Assembly: GCA_031288185.1 (NCBI GenBank)
Contig: JAITRZ010000011.1
Span: 1-46,644, forward strand
Origin: Coriobacteriales bacterium
Lineage (GTDB): Bacteria > Actinomycetota > Coriobacteriia > Coriobacteriales > UBA8131
Direction: 5' to 3'
DNA: 46,644 nt
This document shows, piece after piece, positions 5,329 through 43,088 of this stretch (within the stretch, counting starts at the first letter, position 1; each line of letters begins with the position of its first letter). Made by a program: the position numbers and the translations under genes. Below the pieces are notes generated by a model. The model worked only from the letters and a program-made list of their open reading frames with translations, made no database searches and was not told where the DNA came from.

Positions 5329-7092
5329 TTGCCAAAAAAAGATGCCGAAACCCTGCATCCGGATATCGATACTCCAGCCCCAAGCGCCCAAAAGCCCAAA
5401 TCGTCGTCCCGTTCCAAGCCCAAGAGAGCCAAAACCTTTCCAGATAAACTGGCATCTGCTGTTGCGTCGCTTGGTTTGTCTGTTGGCTCTAAGGCTGCCG
5501 CTAGGGCCACTGCTTCTAAAGCTGCCGCCGAGGCCAGTGCCCCTCAGGCCAGTGCTCCGGCTACTAACTCTAAGGCCAGTGCCCCAACCACTGCTGCTAA
5601 GGCTGCCGCTAGGGCCACTGCCTCTAAAGCTGCCGCCACGGCTGCCGCTCAAACCAGCGCTCAGGCCACGCCTTCCCAACAAACCCAGCCTTCTGATACA
5701 AGCGAACCTGCGTCTTCCCCAGATGCGCCCGCTGCCGATAGGCCTGAGCTGGAACCTGAGATAGAGATGCACGGCGATGAGTTGCAACGCGTTGTTGATG
5801 ACTTTAGGGAGGTTGGCAGCATCGCCTCCAGTGAACTCAGCGGCCTGCTTGCCAACTTTGACCTCAGTGAAAAACAGCTTAAATCTGCTGGCCGCTATCT
5901 GGCGCGCAACAATATCACCGTGCTTGATGAGACTGATCAGGAAGATGTGGCCGCCGCCGCCGCGGCAGCCTCATTGCCAGAAATTTCAGTTGTGGGCGAG
6001 TCCCTGGAAAGCGACGAGGTCGCCGACCTCACCGATGCCGAGATACTCGACGGCATCCCCGATGATGAGCTCAAGGGTACAGAGACCATCGACGTCATTT
6101 TGCCCAAAGTGAGCGCGCGCAAAAAAGTCGCCAAGAAACGCGCCGTTGGCGAATCCTCCATGGCCATGCTAACCGGCGATCCGGTGCGTATGTACCTAAA
6201 GGAAATTGGTAAGGTAGACCTGCTAACGGCTGCTGAGGAAATTGATCTGGCCATGAAAATTGAGGCAGGTGTGGAGGCCGGTGACAAATTGGAGCAGGCC
6301 TTCCGGGACAAGGTTGAATTGGAGCGGCGCGAGTTTCGCCGTCTGACGCGCATTGAGCAGGTTGGCCTGGACGCCAAGCAACAACTCATTGAGGCCAATT
6401 TGCGCCTGGTGGTTTCTATCGCCAAGCGTTACGTGGGCCGTGGCATGCTGTTTTTGGATCTGATTCAGGAAGGCAATTTGGGCCTGATTCGCGCGGTGGA
6501 AAAATTTGACTATACCAAAGGCTTCAAGTTTTCTACGTATGCCACCTGGTGGATTCGTCAGGCTATCACCCGCGCCATCGCTGATCAGGCTCGGACTATC
6601 CGCATCCCCGTGCATATGGTTGAGACAATTAACAAATTGGTACGCGTCCAACGCCAACTGCTGCAGGAACTGGGCCGTGACCCCAGCCCCGAAGAAATCG
6701 GTGAGTTGATGGGTATGCCCGCTGACCGCATTCGTGAAATCCAAAAGATTTCTCAGGAGCCGGTCTCACTAGAAACGCCGATAGGCGAGGAGGAAGACAG
6801 TCAACTTGGCGACTTTATCGAGGACACCGCAGCCGAAGTTCCACCGGATGCCGCCGCCTTTAGTATGCTGCAAGAACAGCTGGGTAAAGTGTTAGACGGT
6901 CTGGCAGAGCGGGAGCGCAAGGTCATCGCGTTGCGTTTTGGGCTAAAAGACGGCCATCCCCGCACCCTGGAAGAGGTGGGCAGGGAGTTTGGCGTAACTC
7001 GCGAGCGCATCCGCCAAATCGAGTCCAAGACCCTTGCCAAACTACGCCATCCCTCGCGTTCCAGCAAACTCAAAGACTACCTGGAGGAATGA
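5329..7092 (+). CDS. rpoD: Primary RNA polymerase sigma factor RpoD
   Basis: A 587-residue group 1 sigma factor that directs RNA polymerase to housekeeping promoters. The second half carries all conserved regions: region 1.2 ([11 protein letters not shown]), region 2 with the -10 recognition and melting helix ([10 protein letters not shown]), region 3, and region 4.2 with the -35 helix ([10 protein letters not shown]). Before region 1.1 (about residues 145-205) lies a long Ala/Ser/Thr/Pro/Lys-rich tail made of repeats such as [13 protein letters not shown]; such tails also occur in other actinobacterial sigma factors. The start is TTG 5329, chosen because AAAGGAG at 5316-5322 precedes it; the frame is open back to 5143 but only through the repeat block. 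The stop overlaps an ATG of the next gene (ATGA). Confidence 0.95.
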
Positions 7093-7097
7093 TATCC

Positions 7098-8156
7098 ATG
7101 TCACAAAACAACCATACTACCCACCCGCCTGCGCGAGCGGACTCTGCCCCAACTGACTCCGCTTCAGCAGGCTCCGCTTTGGCGGATACCCGCGCACCTG
7201 CTCACACAGACCCCGCCTCAGCAAAAGCGGACACGGCTAACACCCACTCGTCCACCTCAGCAGACTCCGCTTCAGCAGGCTCCGCTTTGGCGGATACTGG
7301 CAGTTCCTGCCCGTCCCAGGCATCGCCCGCAGATGCCCCTGCCGCCTCTGCTGCCGATAATGCGCCCGCAGATGCCCCTGCCGCCGAGTGTTCCCACCTC
7401 GACAAACTTAAAACCCATCCCCAAGCTCAGATAAAGCACGCTATCGCGGTGGTAAGCGGCAAGGGGGGTGTAGGAAAGTCATTGGTAGCCGCGCAGCTGG
7501 CTGTGGCCCTGCGCCGTCTGGGCTTTGCCGTAGGCGTACTGGATGCCGACATTACCGGCCCCACTATGGCCCGTGCCTTTGGCATTTCTGACAAGCTGCA
7601 AGCCTGTCAGGATGGCATTATTCCGCAGGAGAGTTCCGGTGGTATCAAACTTGTGTCCACCAATATGGTGCTGCCGGATGAAAGCACACCGGTACTCTGG
7701 CGCGGCACCATCATCTCCAATCTGGTGCGACAATTCTGGTCAGAAGTTCTCTGGGGACAACTCGACTATCTTATCATTGACCTGCCTCCGGGCACGGGTG
7801 ATGTAGCCCTGACAATCTTTCAATCACTGCCCCTGGACGGTGCTGTTGTTGTGAGCACGCCCCAGGATTTGGTGGCTATGATTGTTGCCAAGGCTATCAA
7901 TATGGCTCAGATGATGGAGGTGCCGGTACTGGCCGTTGTTGAGAACATGTCCTATTATCGCTGTGAGTGCTGCGATAGCGTTCAGCGCATTTTTGGTCCC
8001 AGCACGGTTGAGAACCTGGCTCATAACTACACCATTGAGCACTTTGCCGAAGTGCCGATAACGCCCACCTATACCCACCTGATGGACACCGGCAAGGCTG
8101 AGGAGATAGACATCAGCAGCCTCTCAGAACTGGCAGGCCGTCTGGCCTCAGCTTGA
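7098..8156 (+). CDS. Mrp/NBP35/ApbC family P-loop ATPase
   Basis: A 352-residue deviant P-loop NTPase of the type that carries and inserts Fe-S clusters in the cytoplasm. The core (from about residue 110) has the Walker A SGKGGVGKS, the switch motif DADITGP, DLPPGTGD, and a C-terminal Cys-x2-Cys pair (CECC) before RIFG, as expected for cluster binding at the dimer interface. The first 110 residues are a low-complexity Ala/Ser/Asp/Pro tail with the repeat DSASAGSALADT, encoded by an identical 35-bp repeat at 7155-7189 and 7263-7297. Another 23-bp repeat lies at 7324-7346 and 7363-7385. ATG 7098 is preferred over ATG 7089 because GGAGG at 7083-7087 is properly spaced only from the former. It directly follows rpoD and is probably co-transcribed. 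Confidence 0.87.
   Translation: MSQNNHTTHPPARADSAPTDSASAGSALADTRAPAHTDPASAKADTANTHSSTSADSASAGSALADTGSSCPSQASPADAPAASAADNAPADAPAAECSHLDKLKTHPQAQIKHAIAVVSGKGGVGKSLVAAQLAVALRRLGFAVGVLDADITGPTMARAFGISDKLQACQDGIIPQESSGGIKLVSTNMVLPDESTPVLWRGTIISNLVRQFWSEVLWGQLDYLIIDLPPGTGDVALTIFQSLPLDGAVVVSTPQDLVAMIVAKAINMAQMMEVPVLAVVENMSYYRCECCDSVQRIFGPSTVENLAHNYTIEHFAEVPITPTYTHLMDTGKAEEIDISSLSELAGRLASA
7155..7385 (+). repeat. Two families of in-frame repeats in the Mrp N-terminal tail
   Basis: A 35-bp unit is identical at 7155-7189 and 7263-7297, offset by 108 bp. A 23-bp unit is identical at 7324-7346 and 7363-7385, offset by 39 bp. Both offsets are multiples of three, so expansion or loss of copies keeps the frame. 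Confidence 0.85.
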
Positions 8157-8197
8157 GACAGGGCTGGCAGGCCGTCTGGCCTCAGCTTGAGACAGGG
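8130..8197 (+). repeat. Perfect 34-bp tandem duplication across the mrp stop codon
   Basis: Bases 8130-8163 are repeated exactly at 8164-8197. The first copy contains the last codons and the TGA stop of the Mrp gene (8154-8156), so the second copy is an untranslated duplicate of the gene end. Confidence 0.9.
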
Positions 8198-8241
8198 CTG
8201 GCGAAGCTCTTGCTTTGGCCTAAATGGCTCTGTCTGAACTG

Positions 8242-8270
8242 TTGCGCGGGTGGCGGTTTAGCTTTATTAT
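8242..8270 (+). promoter_or_regulatory. Possible promoter of the rpsP operon
   Basis: TTGCGC at 8242-8247 and TATTAT at 8265-8270 are spaced 17 bases. The -10 matches five of six, the -35 three of six. The rpsP start is about 85 bases downstream. No clear terminator separates this from the Mrp gene. Confidence 0.4.
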
Positions 8271-8355
8271 AGGGAGCCCAAGATACCAATTTAATGGGCC
8301 TGTCGGCTGCATAAGGGTCGACCGGTTTTTTTCTCATAGTGGTTAGGAGAGGATT

Positions 8356-8604
8356 TTGGCAGTAAAGATCAGGCTGGCACGACATGGTGCCAAAAAGAGG
8401 CCCTATTACCGGGTAGTTGTGGCTGATGCCCGCTCACCGCGGGATGGCCGGATCATTGAGGAGGTTGGGCGTTATAATCCCTGCGCGCAGCCGGCTCTGG
8501 TACAGTTGGATTTGCCCAAGGTGGATACATGGCTGGAAGCGGGTGCCCAACCCACGCAAACCGTCGCGCGACTGTTGCGTACGGCCAGAGAGCAGGAAAA
8601 GTGA
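8356..8604 (+). CDS. rpsP: 30S ribosomal protein S16
   Basis: An 82-residue protein with the S16 signature from the first residue ([24 protein letters not shown]) and the GRYNP motif. It binds 16S rRNA in the small-subunit body and is needed for assembly. The length is normal. The start is TTG 8356 after AGGAGAGG at 8345-8352. The stop TGA at 8602-8604 shares its last base with the start of khpA, so the first two genes of this rpsP-khpA-rimM-trmD operon are tightly coupled. The order agrees with the conserved Gram-positive operon; ffh, usual upstream, is absent here. Confidence 0.97.
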
Positions 8605-37142: not shown

Positions 37143-38528
37143 CTAGTGGGGTTCAAAGACTCTGACCTGGCAGCTCCCCCGTTCCTGACCCAGGCGCGAG
37201 GTTACGGTAGTGTAGACAACCAACCTGTCCTGTTGACCACAGCTTGCGAGAATATCGCCATACGATACACTGTTTTCTGGTGTAGGCACTATCAAAGCGG
37301 TGCCGTGGGTCGCGTCCAGGCCAATGATGTTTTTGGTTGACTTTACATACAGCAGCGCGCCTAGAACCAATGGTGCTGAACTGGGCGCCTTGTTGATGTA
37401 CAGGAACTGGTCATGTGCCCTTTGCCAGTAGGTGCCAGCGTAGGCCAGCCCCTGGGCGTAGTCATAGTTGGCCTCGATACAAAAGGCAAAGCCCTCATCT
37501 AACCATACGGCATCAGAAACGCGCAGCGAAGGGGGCAGGATGGCGACGTTGCGCACCACATCATCGTTGATGCCCAAGGCGGTAAGCTGGTAATAGACGC
37601 TGTCAGCATCAGCTCGCGGCACAATGGTCAGGACATCACCAGAAACCTGCGGGTTGGTAATCATGCGTCCATGGGACGTATAGATGGTGCGGGGTTCAGG
37701 TTTGGCACCCGGCTGTTGGGGGTTAAGGAGTGCGCACCTTAGCAACGAATCTTCCTGGGAAGCCAAACCGGTGGGATCAGGCATCACGGTCCAGTACACC
37801 TTGTTGCCGCTCACCGCCAGTAAAGGGGGCTCAAAGTCTGGGCCGCCTTTATCCAACAGGATTGCCTGGGGTAGAGTGCTAGCGCCAGAAGCACCGCTGC
37901 CTCCCGCTGTTTTTTCTCCCGCCGTTCCGTCAGCCCCAGAAGCGCCGCCGCTGGTTGCCTCGGCGATTGGGCTGGGCGCGCCGTTAGTAAGCGTAGCGGC
38001 ATAAACGCGCCAGATGTCATCAATCATGTTGGACTCCACCCAGATAAGGGCGCTGTCAGAGGCGCGTGCGTCATAGATAACGTAGTCTTCATTTGCGCCC
38101 AGGGCCTGGTTTAGCAGAGGCGTGCGGCTGCCATCATACAGGCTGGTCATATCCAGACGAATCAGATAGCGGCTGGAATCCCCTGGGCCTATCACCAGCG
38201 CTCTGGTGGGCGAGCTCTGATACAGCAGACTGCCCAAGGGCAGCTCAAAGCTGCTGGTTTCCTTGAGGTAGTCTTGGTAGCTTACGTTTGTCATATCTGT
38301 ATAGGGCAGCACCTGCGTTGGGTCTACCCGCAGATACTGAATGTGGGCCTGGGGAGCATTTTGAGCCGCTGTGGCGATAAGCTTGTCAACACTGTTGGTA
38401 CTACTGCAACCGGTCAGGGTCAGGTTGCTGGCCGTGAGTGTCCCTCCCGCCAATACACTGCCCGCCAGTACTCCCCCAGCCAGGGAAGAGGTAAGAAAGC
38501 GTCTACGTGATATGCGTTTTGGCGTCAT
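37143..38528 (-). CDS. Tat-exported lipoprotein, probable beta-propeller
   Basis: A 461-residue secreted protein. The N terminus has a twin-arginine motif (SRRRFL), a hydrophobic stretch and a lipobox-like LTGC, so it is probably exported folded and lipid-anchored at the Cys near residue 41. The remainder is beta-rich with repeating segments that resemble a TolB/WD-type propeller (for example LLRCALLNPQQPG, RVYAATLTNG). No catalytic motif is visible. A Gly/Ser/Ala/Thr-rich spacer (about 192-217) lies between blades. The start is ATG 38528; TTG 38537 precedes it. The gene follows the amidohydrolase by 14 bp on the same strand, suggesting one operon. Function not recognised. Confidence 0.72.
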   Translation of the reverse strand: MTPKRISRRRFLTSSLAGGVLAGSVLAGGTLTASNLTLTGCSSTNSVDKLIATAAQNAPQAHIQYLRVDPTQVLPYTDMTNVSYQDYLKETSSFELPLGSLLYQSSPTRALVIGPGDSSRYLIRLDMTSLYDGSRTPLLNQALGANEDYVIYDARASDSALIWVESNMIDDIWRVYAATLTNGAPSPIAEATSGGASGADGTAGEKTAGGSGASGASTLPQAILLDKGGPDFEPPLLAVSGNKVYWTVMPDPTGLASQEDSLLRCALLNPQQPGAKPEPRTIYTSHGRMITNPQVSGDVLTIVPRADADSVYYQLTALGINDDVVRNVAILPPSLRVSDAVWLDEGFAFCIEANYDYAQGLAYAGTYWQRAHDQFLYINKAPSSAPLVLGALLYVKSTKNIIGLDATHGTALIVPTPENSVSYGDILASCGQQDRLVVYTTVTSRLGQERGSCQVRVFEPH

Positions 38529-38542
38529 GGGAAGCAATCCTG

Positions 38543-40114
38543 TCAGGTAATATTGCTTAATTTAATACGCATTTCTTCAGCCCGGACAAAGACCCTCTCG
38601 ATGTCTACGGAGTGTTGGTGGTGACCGTCGTAGAGTATCGTACCCGCCACCATAGTCATCATAATGTTATTTGGCGAAGCAGTGTAGAGCACTGCTTCGC
38701 CGGGGTCATGGGTAGGTGCCTGGTTGGAGTTGGAGAGATCCACGGCAATCAGGTCGGCGGCCTTGCCTGGCTGCAAAGAACCAATTTCATCGCTCAGGCC
38801 AAGGGCCTCAGCAGATCCCAGCGTGGCCATCCTGAGCATCTGGTTAGCCTTGATAAAATCCTGGCGCGTACCCGTGGCGCGTTGCAATAAGAGCCCGGTG
38901 CGCATCTCCATGAAGGGATCAGTAGAATCAGTAGCGGCAGGCGAATCTGTGCCCAAACCTACCTTTAAGCCGGCCCGGAAGAACTTTGAAGTGGGCGCAA
39001 TACCCATGGCCAGTTGAGCGTTGCAGCGCGGGCAGACAGCGATGTTGATGGCGTATTCAGCCAGTTTTTCGATGTCAGCATCATCAACCTGTACACAGTG
39101 GATAGCAAGCACGTTGGGTGCGTCAAAAACGCCCCAGTTAAGGATATAGCGCACCGGGCTCACGCCGGTTGCCAACCAAGGTGGCACATCCACACCGTAG
39201 CCGCGCTCCTGCTGGAGAGAGTGTACTGAAAACGGCGAAGAACCGTAACGGATAAACTCATATTCCTCGCGGCTCCCCGCCAGATGCAGTGCCACCGGGG
39301 TGCCGTCTGCCGCATAGCGCGCCACGCCTTCAAAAATCAACGGATGACAACTGTAAAGCGCTGAAGGCGACAGGCCAATCTGTATGCTTGGAGGCTGACC
39401 GATGACATCTTGCTGCGCATGTGCGAAAGGGTCGCCTTGCCGTGGAGGCATCGCGGTGGCGCCTTGCTTTGCTGTTGTAGAGTTTGCGAAAGAGGAAGCG
39501 TCTTGCTTTGCTGCCGCAGGGTTGGAGGGCGCAGAGGCTGTTGTCGCGCCTTCAGACAAGGCCACCTCTTTCTCCGAGGCTGCAACGGCCGATGCGTTTG
39601 TCTGGCCGGCCAGGGCTCGCCACTCCTGAACGTCGGCAAAGGCCCTGTCCAATGTGGCGTCCACCTCACGTCGCTCCATCGTGCCTACTTCACGGTAGAT
39701 TATGGCCCGCAGGCCCACGGCCCTCACCGCCTTCAAGGAGGCACCGGTGCCGGTAATGTCCGCAACGGTGGTAATGCCGCTTCGCACAACTTCCAGGGCT
39801 CCCAATAGCGCTGAGTCATTCCAATCACCCAAACTGAACATCTGCTCCTTGTTGGCGATGTGCAGCTTCCAGGCGGCATAGGGCGCGTCATTGATGAGTC
39901 CACGCATCGCCGAATACTCCAGATGGGTGTGGGCATCCACAAAGCCTGGGAGTAGTGCCGCCAGTCCAAAGTCACGGATAGGCTCGTTGGGATAGCGGGT
40001 TTTGAGTAGGGCCGCTGAACCCACATCCGCAATGCGACCACCGCGTACCAATACGGCACCGTTTTCTATGTGTGGGTCGCTAACCGGTATCACGTAGCGA
40101 GCAACAAACAGCAT
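38543..40114 (-). CDS. Amidohydrolase-superfamily deaminase-like protein
   Basis: A 523-residue metal-dependent hydrolase. The metal ligands are in DAHTHLEYSA, a later LHLAGSREE and HCVQVDDAD, and the catalytic Asp in GTDSPAATD. This pattern is shared by S-adenosylhomocysteine/methylthioadenosine deaminases and the aminofutalosine deaminase group of menaquinone synthesis. The HTHLE-x-S variant leans towards the latter, though I cannot choose the substrate. An Ala/Ser/Thr/Gln-rich insert of about 70 residues (about 165-235) interrupts the barrel and includes repeated segments such as KQDASSFANSTTAKQGA. ATG 40114 is preceded by AAAGGGGA. The lipoprotein gene follows 14 bp downstream. Confidence 0.83.
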   Translation of the reverse strand: MLFVARYVIPVSDPHIENGAVLVRGGRIADVGSAALLKTRYPNEPIRDFGLAALLPGFVDAHTHLEYSAMRGLINDAPYAAWKLHIANKEQMFSLGDWNDSALLGALEVVRSGITTVADITGTGASLKAVRAVGLRAIIYREVGTMERREVDATLDRAFADVQEWRALAGQTNASAVAASEKEVALSEGATTASAPSNPAAAKQDASSFANSTTAKQGATAMPPRQGDPFAHAQQDVIGQPPSIQIGLSPSALYSCHPLIFEGVARYAADGTPVALHLAGSREEYEFIRYGSSPFSVHSLQQERGYGVDVPPWLATGVSPVRYILNWGVFDAPNVLAIHCVQVDDADIEKLAEYAINIAVCPRCNAQLAMGIAPTSKFFRAGLKVGLGTDSPAATDSTDPFMEMRTGLLLQRATGTRQDFIKANQMLRMATLGSAEALGLSDEIGSLQPGKAADLIAVDLSNSNQAPTHDPGEAVLYTASPNNIMMTMVAGTILYDGHHQHSVDIERVFVRAEEMRIKLSNIT

Positions 40115-40255
40115 CAGACTGTCCCCTTTCCTGCCTTGATCATGTGACCGCCTCCCCGTTGTTGGCGGACAAAAGCCACGCCGATAATATGCTCCCAGCA
40201 GCAACCCTGACAAGAACAGTTGCCAGCCTGTGCCGTTGGGCTATTGCACAAATGG

Positions 40256-40270
40256 TAACATAGCCACATG
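40256..40270 (+). promoter_or_regulatory. Possible leaderless start of the ecfA gene
   Basis: TAACAT at 40256-40261 matches the minimal actinobacterial -10 (TANNNT). It lies six bases before ATG 40268, so transcription should begin at or near the A of the start codon. No ribosome binding site is present in the 20 bases before the ATG. This would give a leaderless mRNA. Confidence 0.4.
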
Positions 40271-42292
40271 GCAACACGATTTGTAAAACCTCCAAGCCCG
40301 CAGGACGACAATACGGATGCTGCCGCAGTTACGTTTGTGGACGCCAGCTATTCCTATGCCCAAAACCAGCAGGTTGCGGCATTGACGCGCATAAATTTTG
40401 CTATTGAAAAAGGCGAGTTTGTCGCCGTCGTCGGTTCAAATGGTTGCGGCAAGTCTACTTTGTCTAAGCTGGTCAACGCCCTGCTGACGCCCTGTTCTGG
40501 CCGCGTGTTCACGATGGGACTGGACACCGCCCAGGAGCAGGGTGATGTGCTTTTGGCCATTCGTTCTCAGGCTGGATTGGTGCTGCAAAATCCCGATTCA
40601 CAGATTGTCGCCAGCGTGGTTGCCGACGACATCGCCTTTGGCCCTGAAAACCTCTGTGTGCCCCACCGGGAAATTGTTACACGGGTGGAGGATGCCCTGG
40701 CCGCCGTTAAGATGTCTGAACGTCGCCACGCCAATCCCGTGCGTCTTAGTGGTGGACAAAAACAACGGGTTTGTATCGCCGGGATGCTGGCCATGCAGCC
40801 CAGCGTGCTGGTTTTGGATGAGCCGGGCGCCATGCTGGACATCCGTGGCCGCCGTGGTGTTTTGCGTACCCTGCATCGGCTTCACAAACAGGGCATGACT
40901 GTTATCCTGATTACGCAGTCTATGGAAGAGGCCGCCAACGCCCAACGGGTACTGGTGCTTAACAAGGGCCAGGTGTTGATGTCCGGAGCTCCGCGCGAGG
41001 TGTTTAAGCGGCATAAACTGCTGGTGGATATTGGCCTGGACGTGCCCTTTTCAGTGCGCCTTGCGGTGGCCTTGCGCCAGTTGGGGCTGTTGGTACCTGA
41101 TGTCGCCAGCCCTGATGAGCTCCTGCAAGCGCTATCAGAGGCGCGCACGGGAACCAGCGCTGATGTATCTGACACGTACGCAGGTGCCAAAAAAAATGAT
41201 ATCGAAGATAGCACAAACTCGGCGTTATCAGACGTGCGCGCAGGTGTTGGTTTTGGACAAATCGTTTTGGTAGACAACGGCCGGCTATCGGGGGCACGCA
41301 CGAGCGTTGGTGCTCATGTGTCGAGCGAGCGCGCGGACGCTGGTGCCAATGTATCAGATGCGCAAACGAGCGTTGGCGTGGGCTCAAAGGGAGCAGGGGC
41401 ATCGAATCCTACGCTCCTGTTGCGTGACGCGCGCTTTGCGTACAGCAGCAATGACGTGGGTAACGAGGCGCTGCGTGGGGTGTCGCTAAACCTGGGTGCG
41501 GGCGAACTGTTGGGTGTGGTGGGGCATACCGGCTCAGGCAAGACCACGCTGTTGCAGTTGATAGCCGGGCTGATACGCGCGCAGAATGGCCTGGTGCAGG
41601 TGGCCGGTTTGGATCTTAGTTTGCGTCAGGCGCGTTGCCGCCTGCATTCCCTGGTAGGAATGGTATTTCAATATCCAGAACGGCAATTTTTTGCGCCGAC
41701 TGTGGCCGAGGAAATCGCTTTTGGGCCCCACAATGCTGGTCTGGACAAAACACGCTGTGATAAGCGGGTACGGGAAGCGATGCGACTGTTGGGCCTGGAT
41801 TATGAGAGGTTTGCCCAGCGGTCCCCCTTTGAGCTAAGCGGTGGTGAAAAGCGGCGTGTAGCGGTGGCCAGTGTGATTGCCGCTGATCCCAAGATCCTGG
41901 TGTTTGATGAGCCAACCGCTGGTTTGGATGTGAGCGGCCAGCGCTATTTACAGGCATTTATCAGCGGGTTAAAACAGCGCAAAAAAACGATAGTGTTAGC
42001 CTCACACTCTTTGGATCTGATTGCTGAGTTGGCTGACCACGTGCTGGTGCTTGACCACGGCACGGTGGCCATGCAGGGGTCGCCGGCAGACGTGTTTGCT
42101 TCGCATAACGCCAACGAGTTGCGACGTATCAACCTGGGGCTACCGCGCGCGGCGCTCTTTGCGCTGGAATTACAGGCTGCTGGGCTCAATTTACCCGCTG
42201 GCATCTTTACCGTTGAGCCACTGGCACAAGCCATTATTCTTGCGCTCAAGGCAGGGCACACAGGCAAGCAAAGGCACATTCATGGCGTTTGA
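40268..42292 (+). CDS. ECF transporter ATPase, EcfA-EcfA' fused in one chain
   Basis: A 674-residue protein with two complete ABC ATPases of the energy-coupling factor type, which power vitamin or metal-ion uptake. The first (about 20-290) has VGSNGCGKST, LSGGQKQR and LVLDEPG with catalytic Glu185, but the switch His is Gln217 (LITQSME) and the Thr after EP is Gly187. The second (about 385-660) is canonical: VGHTGSGKTT, LSGGEKRR, VFDEPTAGLD and H580. They are joined by a Ser/Ala/Asp/Thr-rich repeat linker of about 80 residues (about 295-385). The two sites are therefore unlike. ecfT overlaps by 11 bp; no S component is adjacent. Confidence 0.93.
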   Translation: MATRFVKPPSPQDDNTDAAAVTFVDASYSYAQNQQVAALTRINFAIEKGEFVAVVGSNGCGKSTLSKLVNALLTPCSGRVFTMGLDTAQEQGDVLLAIRSQAGLVLQNPDSQIVASVVADDIAFGPENLCVPHREIVTRVEDALAAVKMSERRHANPVRLSGGQKQRVCIAGMLAMQPSVLVLDEPGAMLDIRGRRGVLRTLHRLHKQGMTVILITQSMEEAANAQRVLVLNKGQVLMSGAPREVFKRHKLLVDIGLDVPFSVRLAVALRQLGLLVPDVASPDELLQALSEARTGTSADVSDTYAGAKKNDIEDSTNSALSDVRAGVGFGQIVLVDNGRLSGARTSVGAHVSSERADAGANVSDAQTSVGVGSKGAGASNPTLLLRDARFAYSSNDVGNEALRGVSLNLGAGELLGVVGHTGSGKTTLLQLIAGLIRAQNGLVQVAGLDLSLRQARCRLHSLVGMVFQYPERQFFAPTVAEEIAFGPHNAGLDKTRCDKRVREAMRLLGLDYERFAQRSPFELSGGEKRRVAVASVIAADPKILVFDEPTAGLDVSGQRYLQAFISGLKQRKKTIVLASHSLDLIAELADHVLVLDHGTVAMQGSPADVFASHNANELRRINLGLPRAALFALELQAAGLNLPAGIFTVEPLAQAIILALKAGHTGKQRHIHGV

Positions 42293-43088
42293 CAGCATCA
42301 TTGGCCAATATTACTATCGCGACTCGCTCATTCACGCCTTGGACCCACGGCTCAAGTTAAGCCTACTGCTGTTTTTTATCGCCCTGGCGTTTGTGGCGGA
42401 CTCATTTTTGGCGCTGTTTATCCTGTTGGCGCTGTTGGGATGGACGGTGGGATTGTCAAGGATACCTCTACCAGCGGTAGTAAAGGCCCTGCTGCCCACA
42501 TTGGCGCTTTTGTTGTTTCCTTTACTCTTTAATCTGTTTTTTGTGCAAAGCGGCACAATTTTAACGCAGCTTGGCGGTATCGCTATCACTGACGAGGGTT
42601 TGTATCGTGGCACCTATATGAGTTTAAGACTGTTGTTTTTGTTTAGTTGTGCCACGCTGGTGACCTTGACAACCACAACCATCGCTATCAGTGACGCTTG
42701 TGCCGCCATGCTGCGCCCCTTCCGCCGTCTGGGCGTGCCGGATATTGAAATTGCCCTGCTGGTTAGCATTGCTTTGCGCTTTATCCCCACCCTGGCTGAT
42801 GCCTATAGTGACATTCTCAAGGCCCAGCAGGCGCGTGGCGCGATCTTTGATAAGGGCGGGCCAATCGCCAGGCTGCGCGGATTGTTACCGCTCCTGGTAC
42901 CCCTGTTTGCCCAAGCATTTAGGCATGGTGAAGACCTGGCTGTGGCCATGGAAAGCCGTTGTTACCATGGCGGTGAACGAAGCCACTATCGCGAACTGCG
43001 TATGCGTAAGGCAGACTACGGAGCCCTTGCGGTTGTGGGGGCGGTGGCGCTGCTGATAGGTGCCTTGCGCCTGTTTCATAGCTTTTGA
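42282..43088 (+). CDS. ecfT: ECF transporter transmembrane protein EcfT
   Basis: A 268-residue membrane protein, with about five hydrophobic spans and the two coupling helices that contact the ATPases (AQQARGAIF and AMESRCYHGG), both with the Ala-Arg-Gly-type motif typical of EcfT. It joins the ATPase pair to a substrate-binding S component, which is not encoded here and may be shared between several. ATG 42282 overlaps the stop of the ATPase gene by 11 bp; AAAGG at 42270-42274 is the likely binding site. The final 60 bp before thrC hold a weak inverted repeat. Confidence 0.93.
   Translation: MAFDSIIGQYYYRDSLIHALDPRLKLSLLLFFIALAFVADSFLALFILLALLGWTVGLSRIPLPAVVKALLPTLALLLFPLLFNLFFVQSGTILTQLGGIAITDEGLYRGTYMSLRLLFLFSCATLVTLTTTTIAISDACAAMLRPFRRLGVPDIEIALLVSIALRFIPTLADAYSDILKAQQARGAIFDKGGPIARLRGLLPLLVPLFAQAFRHGEDLAVAMESRCYHGGERSHYRELRMRKADYGALAVVGAVALLIGALRLFHSF

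Follow-up and report, generated by a model that had tools for sequence, protein, structure and literature searches.

Fusion of the two ATPases of ECF transporters into a single chain has been described (PMC6828968, citing Rodionov 2009 and Eitinger 2011), and the fused EcfA1-EcfA2 proteins of Coriobacteriales and others, such as those of Collinsella, Enorma, and Bifidobacterium, have the same domain order as the protein considered here. The EcfA and EcfA′ proteins of Lactobacillus delbrueckii ECF-FolT2 offer another close comparison: like the fused protein they make up a two-site ATPase on EcfT, and such EcfA1 chains are the closest solved relatives of its first nucleotide-binding domain (NBD1). 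They are, however, two separate subunits, both with all of the important motifs (PMC4820897). Asymmetric nucleotide occupancy has been reported for this system, with ATP retained in EcfA and ADP in EcfA′ when ECF-FolT2 is under ATP, and a single Walker B Glu to Gln replacement in either subunit abolishes both ATPase activity and transport (PMC10368641). From the names of the PDB entries, we take this EcfA to be EcfA1.

Unequal ATP sites are also a feature of the ABC exporters MRP1, Pdr5, and TAP, in which departures at the H-loop occur (PMC7756269). Degenerate sites of this type usually lack the catalytic Walker B Glu, the loss of which has been called their hallmark (PMC7544095), whereas the fused protein retains it. 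In nucleotide-binding site 2 of MRP1, replacement of the H-loop His by Gln or Asn leaves transport wild-type-like while other changes nearly abolish it (PMC7756269). The two sites of one ECF structure have been noted to be unlike at other positions (PMC6486640). In a search of freely accessible literature, no earlier report of unequal ECF ATP sites or of a His-less EcfA was recognized, and the novelty of such asymmetry is uncertain.

A fused EcfA1-EcfA2 ATPase with a single altered motif

The window, by which we mean the whole stretch of 46,644 nucleotides analyzed (contig JAITRZ010000011.1 of a Coriobacteriales bacterium), encodes on its forward strand an uninterrupted open reading frame of 674 residues (positions 40268–42292) that matches both ECF ATPase models, confirming the preliminary description of two ATPases joined in one chain. 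The best model for NBD1 is TIGR04520 (ECF_ATPase_1, residues 23–289) with 548 bits against a curated cut-off of 315, and that for NBD2 is TIGR04521 (ECF_ATPase_2, residues 386–656) with 537 against 330, the bits being whole-protein scores. Comparison with solved structures gives the same assignment. NBD1 (residues 20–290; 40325–41137) is of the EcfA1 type, its best PDB match being the EcfA1 chain 8bmr_A (E = 6.9e-64) with the EcfA1 of 5jsz also among the closest, and NBD2 (residues 383–665; 41414–42262) is of the EcfA2 type, its closest solved relative being EcfA2 4mki_B. Named relatives of the fused protein include Coriobacteriales such as Collinsella, Enorma, and Atopobiaceae, from which the host order is judged, as well as Bifidobacterium, Firmicutes, and others.

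Both halves have an intact Walker A motif, Q-loop Gln, Walker B Glu, D-loop, and signature. In NBD1 these include the Walker A sequence GSNGCGKS (residues 56–63; 40433–40456), the Q-loop residue Gln107 (40586–40588), the signature LSGGQ (residues 160–164; 40745–40759), which by the general rule for such ATPases would face the EcfA2 ATP site, and the catalytic Walker B residue Glu185 (40820–40822). NBD2, described beforehand as canonical, is indeed so, with Glu548, the signature LSGGE, and the switch residue His580 encoded by CAC (42005–42007). Q-helix motifs, NPDSQI and YPERQF, follow the respective Q-loops and conform to the ECF pattern x-P-D/E-x-Q-hydrophobic (PMC6828968).

The exception lies in the switch region of NBD1, where the motif LITQS places Gln217 (codon CAG, 40916–40918) in the position of the switch His, as had been noted. 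Of the departures that mark a degenerate site, the altered H-loop His is thus present, but the catalytic Glu is kept in both domains and both signatures are typical of the family, so that a degenerate site, as the term is generally used, is not supported for the fused protein. A second presumed defect, Gly187 (40826–40828), does follow Asp184-Glu185-Pro186, yet it is no sign of degeneration: EPGAMLD is common in the family, and the string DEPGA occurs in 33 of the 110 EcfA1 loci of the order compared below and in 15 of the 18 from the host's own family.

Gln217 is private to one genome

The distribution of the switch residue within Coriobacteriales was obtained from 110 EcfA1 loci, 30 from a first search and 80 fetched subsequently, in a pool in which 355 of the 395 genomes of the order had a match. 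His is present in 109 of these loci and Gln in one, that of the protein studied here. Sixty-one loci are fused, and in all 60 of the others NBD1 has the His; the corresponding NBD2 His can also be read in 58 of them, the remaining two running off the sequence. A congener carries a fused open frame of 731 residues with 62–71% identity and encodes the switch residue by CAC, one base from CAG. Because of these 58 fused relatives with both His residues and the CAC codon of the congener, Gln217 is private to this genome. Fusion itself is ordinary, as fusion and separation have interchanged at least 15 times on a tree of 95 rows.

Of the 56 columns with a conservation of 97% or more in the order, NBD1 deviates at three, with Cys for Ser in Walker A, Leu for Phe ahead of the Q-loop, and Gln for the switch His. 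This is the third highest count in a set of 109 rows. For NBD2, compared over 96 rows, two of 36 such columns deviate. Wholesale decay of NBD1 can be dismissed, since the two domains are equally diverged from the congener (identity 66% for NBD1 and 68% for NBD2, with dN of 0.27 and 0.26, respectively).

Switch-residue losses in other lineages

In 203 nonredundant EcfA1 rows, the switch residue is His in 194, Gln in seven (the fused protein included), and Asn in two; in 192 EcfA2 rows it is His in 191 and Ala in one. Both sets are enriched, as one Syntrophomonas match was followed up. The Walker B Glu is present in every row of both. On the 95-row tree, Gln or Asn at the EcfA1 switch has at least five independent origins: the fused protein, the L078 clade, L273/L278, L270 (Asn), and L090 (Asn). 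As a random missense change in a CAY codon gives Gln or Asn in three of eight cases, the chance of five out of five is, by our arithmetic, about 0.007.

In the L078 clade, which belongs to a Syntrophomonas lineage and has Gln at the switch, the ECF module adjoins genes that we take from their sequences to be like rpoA, truA, and rplM. This spot in the ribosomal cluster is the usual site of the housekeeping ECF module, and conservation at 70–78% identity argues for function. In another Gln case, a BioY–BioM-like–EcfT operon (L300), the sole ATPase of the locus is a BioM-like protein (1301–2164) with ITQ for ITH and its other motifs intact. Group I BioM is thought to act as a homodimer; if this one does so, Gln would occupy both sites. 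The Ala at the EcfA2 switch belongs to an uncultured member of the Rubrobacteraceae (L080), in which the EcfA2-like ATPase also has the Walker A sequence GPTQSGKS and its EcfA1 partner an LSPGQ signature and an altered D-loop, LLPV. Fusions in Methanosarcina that seemed to lack the His were rejected, the apparent Glu being an alignment offset and the His being retained in LLVEHR.

A broader pattern is found among 50 loci from the family of Syntrophomonas sp. UBA9860. The EcfA1 Q-loop Gln is absent in 30 of these, where Pro, Ser, or Ala takes its place, and the switch His is absent in eight (seven Gln and one Asn). The first Gly of the EcfA2 signature is replaced by Ser, Thr, or Ala in 25 of the 30 loci without the Q-loop Gln and in none of the seven with it (Fisher p = 7.7e-5, not corrected for kinship), 13 loci having no readable EcfA2. 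The 30 loci are L255, L256, L267–L292, L294, and L297, often with LSSGE or LSTGE in EcfA2; Gln is at the switch in six of them and Asn in one, and in L273/L278 the D-loop is altered as well (MLSR). As judged from these motifs, the erosion in this family maps to one composite ATP site, that of the EcfA1 Q-loop and the EcfA2 signature, and evidence for ECF modules with a naturally altered EcfA1 site was an unexpected gain of the comparison. The fused protein resembles these systems in the His to Gln change at the same position (six loci). Unlike it, however, they have EcfA1 and EcfA2 as separate genes, have lost the Q-loop Gln, and carry LSSGE/LSTGE or ISSGE as the EcfA2 signature.

A probably tolerated substitution in a probable working module

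The fused gene is followed on the same strand, with an overlap of 11 nt, by a gene for EcfT of the CbiQ family (42282–43088; PF02361, 140 bits against a cut-off of 25). Matches to BioY and to PF12822 S-components lie on other contigs of the genome, which is consistent with a shared module. The genome's three other ECF-type ATPase pairs keep both His residues. One of these loci (L264, contig C29; 4695–7781, forward) encodes a 1028-residue frame with two ATPase domains and a C-terminal S-component match to PF12822, and another (L265, contig C66; 1437–5495, reverse) a 1352-residue frame that combines two ECF-type ATPase domains with an apparent ABC exporter consisting of a membrane domain and an NBD.

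The explanation that we consider probable is a shared ECF module of the group II type for vitamin import, with the fused protein as its working ATPase and with a private His217 to Gln change that is tolerated, perhaps at the price of a slower EcfA1 site beside a canonical EcfA2 site. EcfA1 and EcfA2 in one chain should be able to form a head-to-tail ATP sandwich on EcfT. The substitution would then fall in the site made up of the Walker A, Walker B, Q-loop, and switch motifs of EcfA1 and the LSGGE of EcfA2, where the Gln amide most likely still contacts the γ-phosphate, so that this site would still bind ATP and probably still hydrolyze it, perhaps more slowly. The other site, formed from the EcfA2 Walker motifs, His580, and the EcfA1 LSGGQ, would be fully canonical. 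Taken together, the tolerance of MRP1 for Gln or Asn, the inactivity of the L. delbrueckii Walker B mutants, and the ATP/ADP occupancy of ECF-FolT2 point to a working module that is at most mildly asymmetric. The full-length frame with its adjoining EcfT, the other intact motifs of NBD1, the equal constraint on the two domains, and the repeated origins of Gln or Asn at the EcfA1 switch in other lineages argue in the same direction. Counting against it, Gln217 recurs in none of the 109 relatives from the order and so is not conserved where conservation could show function; NBD1 departs at two further conserved columns; the inactivity of single Walker B mutants suggests a motor that tolerates little loss at either site; and the Ala in L080 indicates that not every loss yields an amide. 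The preliminary description was right in its observation and wrong in part of its interpretation (Gly187), what is left being a single private substitution that is most likely tolerated.

Two other explanations appear considerably weaker. In one, which we judge unlikely, the EcfA1 site is truly degenerate, holding bound ATP as a clamp while turnover takes place at the EcfA2 site only, as in heterodimeric ABC exporters. Retention of ATP in EcfA of ECF-FolT2 would fit such a clamp, as would the recurrent erosion of the EcfA1 site in the Syntrophomonas family, but neither this protein nor any of the 203 EcfA1 rows lacks the catalytic Walker B Glu, the Q-loop and both signatures of the fused protein are intact, and in L. 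delbrueckii the single mutants of either subunit are inactive. The other explanation, improbable to a similar degree, is that the species normally has His, Gln217 being due either to an error of sequencing or assembly or to a deleterious polymorphism that is transient. The codon is one base from that of the congener, the Gln is absent from all 109 relatives, and the genome is a draft (89% complete, 73 contigs). The preliminary description had held that many fused homologues with both His residues would make Gln217 an assembly error; they are indeed many, but by themselves they do not prove one. Moreover, the gene reads through without frameshifts or ambiguous bases and bears no further mark of poor sequence, the same change in several independent genomes indicates that it can be reached by evolution, and a random consensus error would be unlikely a priori to hit codon 217.

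The suggestion of asymmetric ATP sites, although it applies to the fused protein at most mildly, has merit beyond it, as asymmetric ECF sites exist in the Syntrophomonas family. A wider reading, which we hold tentatively and regard as possible rather than probable, is that ECF ATP sites are unequal by design, with erosion striking mainly the site of the EcfA1 Walker, Q-loop, and H-loop motifs and the EcfA2 signature. On this reading some lineages would run on an EcfA1 site of altered chemistry beside a canonical EcfA2 site, strongly so in the Syntrophomonas family and at a first step in the fused protein. If this were true, such modules would reveal which of the two sites has to fire for the transporter to be reset. 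Natural modules altered at one composite site are ready-made test cases; the fused protein alone, with its single, private, and conservative change, is a modest one and the Syntrophomonas-family modules are stronger ones.

The linker and other repeats

The domains are joined by a linker (41138–41413) of low complexity, with weak direct repeats and predicted disorder. About 96 residues separate the TIGR04520 and TIGR04521 matches, and within them AlphaFold2 gives a stretch of 82 residues (297–378) with pLDDT below 50, which is therefore predicted to be disordered; the model (pLDDT 79), built on an alignment of eight sequences, was used for domain and linker limits alone. A repeat-rich linker of about 80 residues, as first described, is borne out by this stretch and by five imperfect copies of a 25-nt unit, four of them 64–76% identical to the reference copy, at spacings of 93, 60, 33, and 33 nt. 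The repeats are weak, however, as Tandem Repeats Finder reports no array in the linker. Linker lengths in eight fused members of the family range from 28 to 101 residues, and identity to the congener in this region is 20%.

The linker was rejected as a special ECF feature, since comparable low-complexity stretches occur in five other measured proteins of the same genome. Stretches rich in Ala, Gly, Ser, Thr, and Pro lie inside otherwise ordinary proteins at 38543–40213 and 37143–38537 of the window and, in the L263 locus, at 5842–8493 and 181–2079, the last two being presumably LigA-like and PurH-like, respectively, from a reading of their sequences. Such stretches, housekeeping enzymes included, seem to be a habit of this genome. 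Elsewhere in the window, a 34-nt unit is perfectly repeated in tandem in 2.1 copies (8130–8202).
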